From contig JAFTRI010000001.1 in assembly GCA_017462345.1 (NCBI GenBank), positions 1 through 38,262 on the forward strand: DNA of 38,262 nucleotides, given 5' to 3'. Below the pieces are notes generated by a model. That model saw only the letters and a program-made list of their open reading frames with translations, was not told the DNA's origin and did no database searches. Shown here in pieces: positions 8,554 through 10,525 of the stretch. The translations under genes were made by a program, and so were the position numbers. How positions within the stretch are numbered: the first letter of the stretch is position 1; each line of letters begins with the position of its first letter. The DNA is from Muribaculaceae bacterium. GTDB lineage: Bacteria; Bacteroidota; Bacteroidia; Bacteroidales; Muribaculaceae.

Positions 8554-9954
8554 ATGGGAATCCCGCAGGAATTTGTCGCGCAGATAAGGAGCTATGACAG
8601 CCGGCTGCTTGACGGGCTGGTAGAGGCACTTTCCTTGCCACCGGCAGTGTCGGTGAGGTGCAATACGCGGAAGGGTATATCCCGGCCGGCGAGTAGGCGC
8701 GGTGTTGCGTGGTGTGATGCGGGGTTTTATCTTGAAGACCGGGAACAATTCACATTCGACCCGGCGATGCATCAGGGATTGTATTATGTTCAGGATGCTT
8801 CGTCGATGATAATCGGTCATATAGTGAAGCGTCTGACGTCGGGAGGACATAGCCCCATCCGCTATCTTGATGCATGTGCGGCACCCGGAGGGAAGACCAC
8901 TGCCGCGATAGACGCATTACCTGCCGGCTCGCTTGTGGTAGCCAATGAGTATAACCCATCGCGGGCATCGGTGTTGCGGGAGAATATCATCAAATGGGGG
9001 TATCCGTCGTGTGTCGTATGTCGAGGCGATACTGCAAAATTCAGGAGCATACCCGACTTCTTTGATATTGTGGCGGCTGATGTGCCGTGTTCGGGAGAGG
9101 GAATGTTCCGTAAAGATGAGGATGCTGTATCCCAATGGAGTCCGTCGCTTGTCGACGAATGCGTGTCGAGGCAACGCGAAATAATAGATAACCTTTGGGA
9201 AACATTGCGCCCCGGAGGTTATTTTATTTACAGTACCTGTACCTTTAATCGTAAAGAGAATGAGGAAACGGTAGAGTACATCAGCCGGATGTATGGTGCC
9301 GAGAGTATTGACCTGTCACTGCCGGAAACATGGAATATCGCTCCTGGAATAGATACAGGAGTGAAATGCAGTCGTTTCATGCCTCACCGTACCGATGGAG
9401 AGGGACTGTTTGTGGCTGTGCTGCGAAAGCCGGATGATTGTACGGCAAGCTCCCGTCAACCGCGAAAGGGAAAAACCGGAGCAAAACCGGATAATAGGGT
9501 TTTGTCCCAACTACAGACTGTCCGTTCATGGGTAGATGGCTGTGATGTTGACATAAACGTGTCGGATAGGGGCATTATCACGGTGTTCCCAAAGGAACAT
9601 GCTGTTGCCATTCAACTGCTGTCATCGACCCTTGATGTAACCCATGCCGGTGTTACCGCAGGAATGATCAAGGGCAGGGATCTTGTCCCCTCCCAATCGC
9701 TGGCGTTGTCGACAATGCTACATCCTGCGGCATTCCATCGCTGTGAACTGGATTACCGCACGGCAATTGCGTATCTCAGGCATGAAGCTATTGTATTGCC
9801 GGAAGATACGCCTCGCGGCTATGTGGCTGTAACTTACAATGACTATCCGTTAGGTTTTGTCAAGAATATAGGCAATCGTGCCAATAACCTTTATCCGCCG
9901 GAATGGCGCATCCTTTCATCGCATATTCCCGAGGAGATTCCTTCGGTAATATAA
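8554..9954 (+). CDS. rRNA cytosine-C5 methyltransferase, NOL1/NOP2/Sun family (RsmF/RsmB-like)
   Basis: The product is predicted to methylate cytosine C5 in ribosomal RNA from S-adenosylmethionine. Over 466 residues it shows the SAM-binding motif LDACAAPGGKT (near residue 104), motif IV ADVPCSGEGMFRKD (near 175) with the Pro-Cys pair that releases product, and motif VI YSTCTFNRKENEE (near 226) with the catalytic Thr-Cys. The C-terminal third ends in GFVKNIGNRANNLYP, resembling the RNA-binding C-terminus of RsmF-type enzymes. The family is certain; the exact target (for example 16S C1407) cannot be read from the sequence. It is the last gene of the run from lysS. Confidence 0.9.
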   Translation: MGIPQEFVAQIRSYDSRLLDGLVEALSLPPAVSVRCNTRKGISRPASRRGVAWCDAGFYLEDREQFTFDPAMHQGLYYVQDASSMIIGHIVKRLTSGGHSPIRYLDACAAPGGKTTAAIDALPAGSLVVANEYNPSRASVLRENIIKWGYPSCVVCRGDTAKFRSIPDFFDIVAADVPCSGEGMFRKDEDAVSQWSPSLVDECVSRQREIIDNLWETLRPGGYFIYSTCTFNRKENEETVEYISRMYGAESIDLSLPETWNIAPGIDTGVKCSRFMPHRTDGEGLFVAVLRKPDDCTASSRQPRKGKTGAKPDNRVLSQLQTVRSWVDGCDVDINVSDRGIITVFPKEHAVAIQLLSSTLDVTHAGVTAGMIKGRDLVPSQSLALSTMLHPAAFHRCELDYRTAIAYLRHEAIVLPEDTPRGYVAVTYNDYPLGFVKNIGNRANNLYPPEWRILSSHIPEEIPSVI

Positions 9955-10052
9955 ATTTTGTAACTTTGTGAAAGAAAATAACACTATAACCCCATAACAG
10001 TAAATACAATAGAACAGAATTAGTTTGAATAACGACATATAAAGGATTTTTG

Positions 10053-10227
10053 AGCTTTTGGCTCTTATTCTCTCGTCTGAAAACCGCCAAATTTGAAAGT
10101 AGGGGAATAAGCAGGACTCCAAAAGTTCGCACCTGTGCAGGGTGTGAACTGTTTCGTGCTTATCTCTACAAAGGTGCTTGGCGGTACCGCAGACGAAGGT
10201 CGGCAACAAAATGGTTCCACCTTTTTT
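10053..10227 (+). ncRNA. Candidate structured RNA (independent RNA or leader of the HTH gene)
   Basis: A weak promoter (TTTG 10024-10027, 17 bases, GATTTTTG 10045-10052) would start transcription near 10056; a better -7 box TAACTTTG lies at 9961-9968. The segment holds nested complementary blocks: TCGTCTG 10073-10079 with CAGACGA 10190-10196; ACCGCCAA 10083-10090 with TTGGCGGT 10178-10185; ATAAGCA 10107-10113 with TGCTTAT 10157-10163; GTTCGCACC 10125-10133 with GGTGTGAAC 10141-10149 (one G-U). A competing fold pairs CTTTTGG 10055-10061 with CCAAAAG 10119-10125 and CTTATTC 10064-10070 with GAATAAG 10105-10111. AAAGGTG 10170-10176 pairs with CACCTTT 10218-10224, followed by T residues, like a terminator ending just before the HTH start. 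It matches no RNA family I can name (not tmRNA, RNase P or SRP by their conserved blocks). Confidence 0.45.
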
Positions 10228-10452
10228 ATGATACATATAGGACAGCTTATACAGCAGGAATTGTACCGCCAGGAGCGCACACCGGCATGGCTTGCAAAGA
10301 AAATCAATTGCGAGCGTCCTAATGTGTATTATATTTTCCGGCAGGAATCGATCAATACCGACATGCTATTGCGTATTTCGCAAGCTCTTAACCACAATTT
10401 CTTCAAATACTATTCATCACACATCGACACGTCCGATGCTGCACTGGAGTAA
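10228..10452 (+). CDS. Small helix-turn-helix (XRE-like) DNA-binding protein
   Basis: This 74-residue protein is predicted to bind DNA as a regulator. It is one helical domain with the HTH core at residues 16-40 (RTPAWLAKKINCERPNVYYIF) and the usual following helices (INTDMLLRISQALN), ending HNFFKYYSSHIDT. The ATG at 10228 is preferred; an in-frame GTG at 10135 would add 31 residues unlike the family and would lie within the structured RNA region. The start is one base after the T-run of a terminator-like fold, so expression may depend on readthrough. Direct repeats just downstream (10461-10491) could be its operator, which is inference. Confidence 0.75.
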   Translation: MIHIGQLIQQELYRQERTPAWLAKKINCERPNVYYIFRQESINTDMLLRISQALNHNFFKYYSSHIDTSDAALE

Positions 10453-10460
10453 ATTTATTA

Positions 10461-10491
10461 TACGCTTCCGTAAAATCCATTTACGCTTCTG
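10461..10491 (+). promoter_or_regulatory. Direct repeat, possible regulator-binding site
   Basis: TACGCTTCCG (10461-10470) and TACGCTTCTG (10482-10491) match at 9 of 10 positions and are 21 bases apart start to start, two turns of the helix. They lie between the HTH gene and a -7-like box TACCTTTG at 10518-10525, just upstream of where the -33 element would be. This fits an activator or repressor site for the outer-membrane protein gene. Confidence 0.4.
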
Positions 10492-10517: not shown

Positions 10518-10525
10518 TACCTTTG
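10518..10525 (+). promoter_or_regulatory. -7 box for the outer-membrane protein gene
   Basis: TACCTTTG fits the Bacteroidetes -7 consensus TAnnTTTG exactly. No good -33 TTTG is present at the expected distance, consistent with a need for an activator. The predicted leader is about 105 bases and contains the tandem repeat at 10600-10621. Confidence 0.4.

Follow-up and report, generated by a model that had tools for sequence, protein, structure and literature searches.

In trp-type attenuators the leader transcript carries four strands (1–4) that pair either as 1:2 together with 3:4 or as 2:3, with a T-run after 3:4. The RNA described here has the same arrangement, including a 3:4 stem followed by a T-run, but differs from the trp type in that no leader peptide is indicated, in that the 2:3 rod is extended by two helices (P1 and P2) whose strands sit inside the 1:2 and 3:4 hairpins, and in that the downstream genes are varied, with no biosynthetic theme seen. 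It also resembles riboswitches with terminator platforms, which combine two exclusive folds, a terminator-like platform and conserved internal-loop letters (in the present family these include GAAA and GGU...ACC); unlike riboswitches, it has no known ligand, no common metabolic gene theme was seen and there is no Rfam match.

Among RNAs of the Bacteroidota, the FopS and GibS sRNAs (PMC11697453) are, like the leader, multi-copy and equipped with a terminator. In the sections of that paper dealing with their form, the FopS sRNAs of B. thetaiotaomicron act in trans and are ∼65–70 nt long, with a single-stranded 5′ part (the seed) and one terminator hairpin, and identity with FopS was rejected on comparing this published shape with the ∼180 nt, multi-helix leader. 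Four palindromic Bacteroidetes candidates (HMP2_4078, HMP2_4205, HMP2_1065 and HMP2_1032, three of the four predicted to be terminators), as outlined in the relevant part of PMC8040213, are likewise structured but measure 80–132 bp and lie near phage-type, TPR, RuvA and TonB genes; this comparison is by description and the two sets may overlap. PMC7366714 reports leader-like ORFs as well as long 5′ UTRs for B. thetaiotaomicron, and nothing in the passages concerned is recognizable as the leader RNA; no description of it was recognized in the open-licence full texts searched. The suggestion in the preliminary description that this might be a new RNA agrees with the Rfam search (4227 families), in which neither the window nor the relatives tested matched a known RNA: the window had no match at the gathering score, positions 9900–10320 had none at E ≤ 10, and 40 further relative loci had none on the RNA (20 at E ≤ 1 and 20 at E ≤ 0.1). 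Hits to AaHKsRNA41 (L103 243–390) and mir-2319 (L160 1041–1102, both strands), both below threshold, and to a tRNA (L409 1026–1109) fell outside the RNA, and Bacteroidales-1 RNA (RF01693) had no matches in the window's own genome (84% complete). We consider it probable that the leader is a cis-acting two-state transcription attenuator and a member of a large family for which no description was found.

Fold and parts of the leader RNA

The window, the whole stretch of 38 262 nt that was analysed, contains the leader on the forward strand at 10046–10228, as matched by two covariance models (R1, 167 bits; R2, 142 bits) whose training sets both include the window. R1 was built from 18 leaders in an alignment made on sequence alone (A1) and R2 from 98 RNAs. 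The segment 10053–10227 folds at −65.8 kcal/mol compared with −46.1 ± 4.2 kcal/mol for 200 dinucleotide shuffles (z = −4.68), none of which was as good, in line with the preliminary description, which had judged pairing of this density unlikely in an ordinary gap. The reverse strand is structured as well (z = −3.64), as expected because the leader is a near-palindrome.

Four nested helices had also been proposed, and direct reading of the letters confirms them all: P1 (TCGTCTG at 10073–10079 with CAGACGA at 10190–10196), P2 (ACCGCCAA at 10083–10090 with TTGGCGGT at 10178–10185), P3 (10099–10113 with 10157–10169, containing a two-base bulge) and an apical helix (GTTCGCACC at 10125–10133 with GGTGTGAAC at 10141–10149). 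Together these form a long rod, in which P3 corresponds to the pairing of segments e (10099–10113, strand 2) and f (10157–10169, strand 3), and the apical helix to that of segment a (10125–10133, strand 2, the 5′ arm of the apical hairpin) with segment b (10141–10154, strand 3). A small hairpin (h; 10052–10064) at the 5′ end pairs GAGC (10052–10055) with GCTC (10061–10064) and is followed by segment d (10064–10072, strand 1), whose partner lies within e at 10103–10111. Towards the 3′ end, a GGTG/TACC apical hairpin (10173–10188) holds the 3′ strand of P2 in its loop, and segment c (10209–10221, strand 4), the 3′ half of a terminator-like stem, leads directly into a T-run at 10222–10227. From 5′ to 3′ the strands thus follow in the order d, P1, P2, e and a, b and f, P2′, P1′, g and c, T-run. 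In many relatives f also pairs with g; the window copy contains no clear f:g helix. The terminator-like stem reported earlier, AAAGGTG with CACCTTT, exists and is followed by the T-run, but the relatives support a different pairing there, that of GGTGTGAACTGTTT (b, 10141–10154) with AAATGGTTCCACC (c, 10209–10221).

The RNA appears able to adopt either of two exclusive folds, the rod (P1, P2, e:f and a:b) or two hairpins (d:e, and b and f with g and c), the second of which enters the T-run. Exclusive folds that share strands, combined with a terminator-like stem at a T-run, give the logic of an attenuator, and attenuation between two conserved folds is, on balance, the reading that the sequences favour. 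RNA polymerase would start upstream, transcribing first an A-rich lead and then the switch itself. As long as the 3′ half is missing, d would pair with e (hairpin 1). Later the rod, by keeping b and f apart from c, would compete with hairpin 2, where c (and g) would be paired with b (in many relatives also with f) right before the T-run. The rod would correspond to read-through, with the gene on, and hairpins 1 and 2 together to termination, with the gene off, the outcome depending on some factor or condition that tips the balance towards hairpin 1 or towards the rod. The controlled gene would be a small HTH-like regulator in the window and elsewhere a surface protein, a lipoprotein, a restriction-modification enzyme or another regulator. 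Here we infer transcription, termination and the direction of control; the two-state leader is probably an on/off switch for the downstream gene.

Equilibrium predictions for growing chains of 282 RNAs place d:e in 99% of them at the 5′-half stage and P2 in 100% once P2′ exists. At full length, P2 is predicted in 93% of the RNAs and the terminator stem in 9%. The two end states have mean predicted energies of −55.6 kcal/mol (rod) and −52.7 kcal/mol (two hairpins), with a median difference of 2.6 kcal/mol, and for 189 of the 282 RNAs the rod is predicted to have the lower energy. The rod would thus be the predicted equilibrium default, so that something would have to favour hairpin 1 for termination to occur; kinetics could alter this picture.

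Comparative evidence for the two folds

Covariation, the check proposed in the preliminary description for its helices, is present among the homologues. In A1 (18 relatives), 16 of the 33 pairs of the rod and hairpin h are changed on both sides, as are 13 of the 22 alternative pairs of d:e and b:c. Each fold was equalled by none of 500 shuffles on four measures and by one or two of 500 on a fifth, and both collapse when the partners are slid. Five loci judged by eye to be too divergent (L013, L014, L016, L017 and L019) were left out of A1, L024 and L025 being second pieces of loci already in it; R2 later recovered the RNA at the places of L014 and L019 (as L047 and L041) and not at that of L013 (L038). 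The larger alignments were made to R1 (A3–A6) or R2 (A7). Both models hold the rod and neither holds d:e, f:g or b:c, so that counts for the rod on these alignments lean towards it.

An alignment-free swap test, in which the duplex of a strand with its own partner is compared with those formed with the partners from other RNAs, was run on 282 RNAs (A3–A7 minus duplicates, overlapping antisense hits and truncated copies). The own partner wins in 99% of cases for P1, 87% for P2, 96% for e:f and 98% for the whole rod arm, and in 86% for d:e, 93% for b and f with g and c, and 85% for f:g; the controls d:f, e:g and h5:f give 45, 50 and 49%, and a further control, L1:R2 (68%), is spoiled by the energy assigned where no duplex forms (swapped mean +23.8). 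A run on 147 RNAs agreed with these results.

A tree-aware pair test of our own design was applied to 98 RNAs. Of the 22 single pairs that it yielded at E < 0.1, the model (rod and h) accounts for 17, extensions of the rod for three and the P2′ hairpin for one, the last being indirect; in this test d:e, f:g and b:c had no pair that was significant by itself. At the level of whole helices, under a tree-aware null on the same 98 RNAs, P1, P2, the lower part of e:f, h, a:b and the GGU/ACC hairpin were matched by none of 200 nulls, and the same holds for d:e and f:g of the alternative fold. Part 1 of b:c scored 0/200 by covariation and 1/200 by G, and its inner part 2 is weak (5/200 and 35/200, respectively); the upper part of e:f scored 5/200. 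The controls d:f, e:g and a:c scored 160/200, 143/200 and 171/200. The P2′ hairpin is paired in 93% of cases and its own partner wins 64% of swaps. Segments d and g passed by columns (0/200) and reached 52% in the swap test, which suggests that some of the complementarity may be transitive. Like d:g, a 5′–3′ closing stem (h5:c3; 61% of swaps, 2/200 by columns) lies outside our claim. A stem around the 5′ strand of P2, in which GAAAU/AUUUC looked convincing by eye, was not supported (58% of swaps, 27/200). At changed positions in e, pairing with both of the alternative partners exceeds expectation (35 against 22.8), and no such excess of dual pairing was found for changed bases in f (25 against 25.2) or b (3 against 4.3). 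Comparison of the relatives thus supports both folds, the rod strongly and pair by pair, and the two-hairpin fold at the level of whole helices only.

In contrast to the other helices, P2 contains no G–U among 766 standard-pair cells in A3, though its sequence varies; a protein or a tight loop–loop contact may demand Watson–Crick pairs there. Strict Watson–Crick pairing would also suit an element that works as DNA, such as a cruciform, a recombination site or a protein-binding site, and the near-palindromic sequence, the dispersed copies, the range of 1 to 22 matches among congeners and the cargo-like genes behind them point the same way. We nevertheless regard a DNA-level element as very improbable, since G–U makes up 17–21% of the standard pairs in a:b, f:g, part 1 of b:c and the P2′ hairpin, the promoter motif and T-run are oriented, and antisense matches score far lower.

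Flanking signals and downstream genes

The sequence ahead of the leader was searched for TAnnTTTG, which we take to be a promoter (−7) motif type. In 172 of 279 copies the motif is present in the 120 nt ahead of the RNA, compared with 18.3 expected and 35 for its reversed form, and the commonest distance is 50–59 nt. In the window, the likely −7 element is TAACTTTG at 9961–9968 on the forward strand, 77 nt ahead of the model start. A promoter at 10024–10052, as put forward in the preliminary description, may be present as well, the motif type backed by the relatives being the one at 9961–9968. Just 5′ of the RNA is a GACATA box (10034–10039); GACATA is found in 44 of 146 upstream stretches (4.4 expected), and in 35 of these 44 it starts 5–14 nt before the model start. 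Attenuation by a leader peptide with an ATG start was rejected: ATG is scarcer before the RNA than expected (138 against 182), and no leader peptide is therefore indicated; an ATG ORF of 5–30 codons runs over strand 1 in 55 of 145 copies, with scattered stops.

At the 3′ end, 256 of 281 copies have at least five T in 7 nt, compared with 22% of random nearby places, and this T-richness sits where the window has its T-run. In 237 of 273 copies an ORF on the same strand lies within the next 300 nt; 48 of these ORFs are small and HTH-like, at a median distance of 0 nt, and for the other 189 the median is 55 nt. The T-run of the window copy adjoins the ATG of a small HTH-like gene (74 aa, 10228–10452, forward strand), read as the ORF behind the leader and assigned to HTH weakly. 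Between the RNA and its downstream gene, TAnnTTTG shows no enrichment, being present at 3 of 189 loci (8.6 expected). The preliminary description had offered a cis-acting leader as one of two possibilities, and the adjoining start codon, the placement of the motif upstream of the RNA and not between RNA and gene, and the frequency of a downstream ORF make it likely, judged from sequence, that the leader acts in cis.

The other possibility, a free-standing sRNA gene, would make the T-run the 3′ end of an sRNA, with the gene behind it served by its own promoter or by leaky read-through. The leader has a promoter motif of its own and an end like that of an intrinsic terminator, it shares its multi-copy nature with the FopS sRNAs published for B. 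thetaiotaomicron (in the part of PMC11697453 that describes them), and for 36 of 273 copies the next 300 nt contain no ORF on the same strand; against this, the motif is not found between RNA and gene beyond expectation, a same-strand gene follows most copies, and FopS itself, at ∼65–70 nt with a single-stranded 5′ part, is unlike the leader. In the HTH copies there is, moreover, no room for a promoter of the TAnnTTTG type because the ATG touches the RNA. An sRNA is on this evidence an unlikely reading, though less so for the 36 copies that lack such an ORF. Alternatively, the fold might hide or expose the start-codon region or be cut by a double-strand nuclease, the T-run being incidental. 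Strand c does end within about 10 nt of the ATG in many relatives of the window, in several of which the T-run is short, and short T-runs are also seen in several copies that are linked to HTH genes and come from other genera than that of the window. In the 189 non-HTH copies, by contrast, the ATG lies at the median of 55 nt past the RNA, and T-richness is general among the copies, so that a translational or stability leader seems distinctly improbable and the attenuator remains our preferred reading.

The HTH-like protein was found in 88 of 149 genomes of the window's family. HTH_26 was matched at E ≤ 0.05 by 14 of 24 members of the protein family (best 0.0011), the window protein having no Pfam match over the cut-off; a search for solved chains, made for the question of a Cro/C1-type fold, found none at E < 0.05. 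Of 30 HTH loci (best of 30 family genomes), 19 have the RNA just upstream at E ≤ 10⁻⁴ and 11 do not. Among the five HTH copies of the window's own genome, the RNA is clear for that in the window and for C20 and C10, weak for C12 (27.5 bits, E = 0.0039) and without a match for C17. The leader is not tied to the HTH gene; the HTH-like family is a recurrent partner. Four HTH loci without an RNA match (L045, L048, L049 and L055) have in common, by eye, the stretch GGCAATTCGG ... ACTGAAA ... GGA.CGGC upstream of their HTH paralogues, which could be a leader of another kind or a highly diverged one. Immediately downstream of the HTH gene in the window, positions 10468–10485 (CCGTAAAATCCATTTACG) are repeat-like, and the promoter motif of the next gene (TACCTTTG, 10518–10525) lies beyond this stretch; some relatives show CGTAAAA repeats ∼21 nt apart at the corresponding place (by eye). 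The repeat-like stretch could represent putative operator sites of the HTH protein.

A Pfam scan covered 118 of the 189 non-HTH downstream proteins (53 families found, 25 listed). Nineteen of the 118 match BspA-type LRR_5, and fewer match BACON, DNA methylases, restriction subunits, LytTR, response-regulator domains or a T9SS sorting tail. By a simple pattern, 122 of the 189 look secreted, 31 of them with a lipobox. In four viral contigs (L327, L336, L340 and L346), the leader lies 55–70 nt before similar genes, the start of which resembles, by inspection, that of a type I restriction HSDR_N protein; two HSDR_N_2 matches occur among the 118 scanned proteins, a set that contains the L340 protein.

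Distribution and significance

When the leader and HTH gene were used together as a DNA query, 21 of 149 genomes from the family to which the window belongs gave a match, whole or partial. R1 matches were found in 210 of 297 genomes of this family (Muribaculaceae) and, at the level of the order, in 136 of 393 genomes and 81 of 206 genera; R2 matches were found in 68 of 395 genomes across the phylum. In the window's genus, all 12 genomes have R2 matches (1 to 22 each, including a few antisense duplicates), and the window's own genome has 22 separate places with an R2 match at E ≤ 0.001. Searches over more than 40 genomes scored 6–9 candidates per genome, so that the copy numbers from these are lower bounds. 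Conservation of the segment, which the preliminary description had named as a check, is thus that of a large multi-copy family across the phylum, and the leader is very likely a member of a large, conserved and widespread RNA family. The range of 1 to 22 matches among the 12 congeners points to rapid gain and loss. As examples among the congeners, G033 (99% complete) has two matches and G053 (92% complete) 21. Paired copies ∼0.3–3 kb apart occur within single loci, codirectional in L152, L270 and L271 and opposed in L275, which gives the impression that leader–gene units could be neighbours.

A pattern scan found at least 119 stretches, and R1 confirmed 72 of 80 among the matches listed. Confirmed loci include those of Paraprevotella clara, Hoylesella loescheii, Chryseobacterium gregarium and Dysgonomonas, as well as Maribellus, Draconibacterium, Prevotella and Alistipes, and it is from these organism names that the phylum is called Bacteroidota. 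For Paraprevotella clara YIT 11840 there are eight matches, one being the antisense counterpart of another. The eight stretches that failed R1 are all labelled as other phyla and so provide a useful control of specificity. Five confirmed loci carry labels from outside the Bacteroidota (one Deltaproteobacteria, three Kiritimatiellae/Kiritimatiellia and one Lentisphaerae); all five are from metagenome bins, and misbinning is therefore possible. A sixth is labelled Kapaibacterium. On viral contigs (phages or prophage edges), 25 of 28 loci passed R1.

The leader most likely represents an undescribed class of attenuator leaders for genes of surface proteins, restriction-modification systems and small regulators. 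More tentatively, its copies may form a phylum-wide RNA regulon, in which the conserved internal loops of as many as about twenty leaders per genome would sense one common signal, protein or ligand. Through strand exchange between the rod and the two hairpins, it would control a changing repertoire of genes for surface, defence and small regulator functions in Bacteroidota and in their phages, with the complementary strands of P2 held in loops. If true, such a regulon would constitute a new class of regulatory leader and perhaps a new kind of trigger. Present in 210 of the 297 family genomes searched, with 22 places in a single genome, the leader would rank among the more frequent regulatory RNAs of the Bacteroidota. 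A single genome of gut or environmental Bacteroidota can contain about twenty copies, and the genes downstream (BspA-type repeat proteins, lipoproteins, restriction-modification enzymes and small regulators) shape encounters with hosts, phages and foreign DNA; the trigger, once found, would name a signal common to all of the leader-linked genes.
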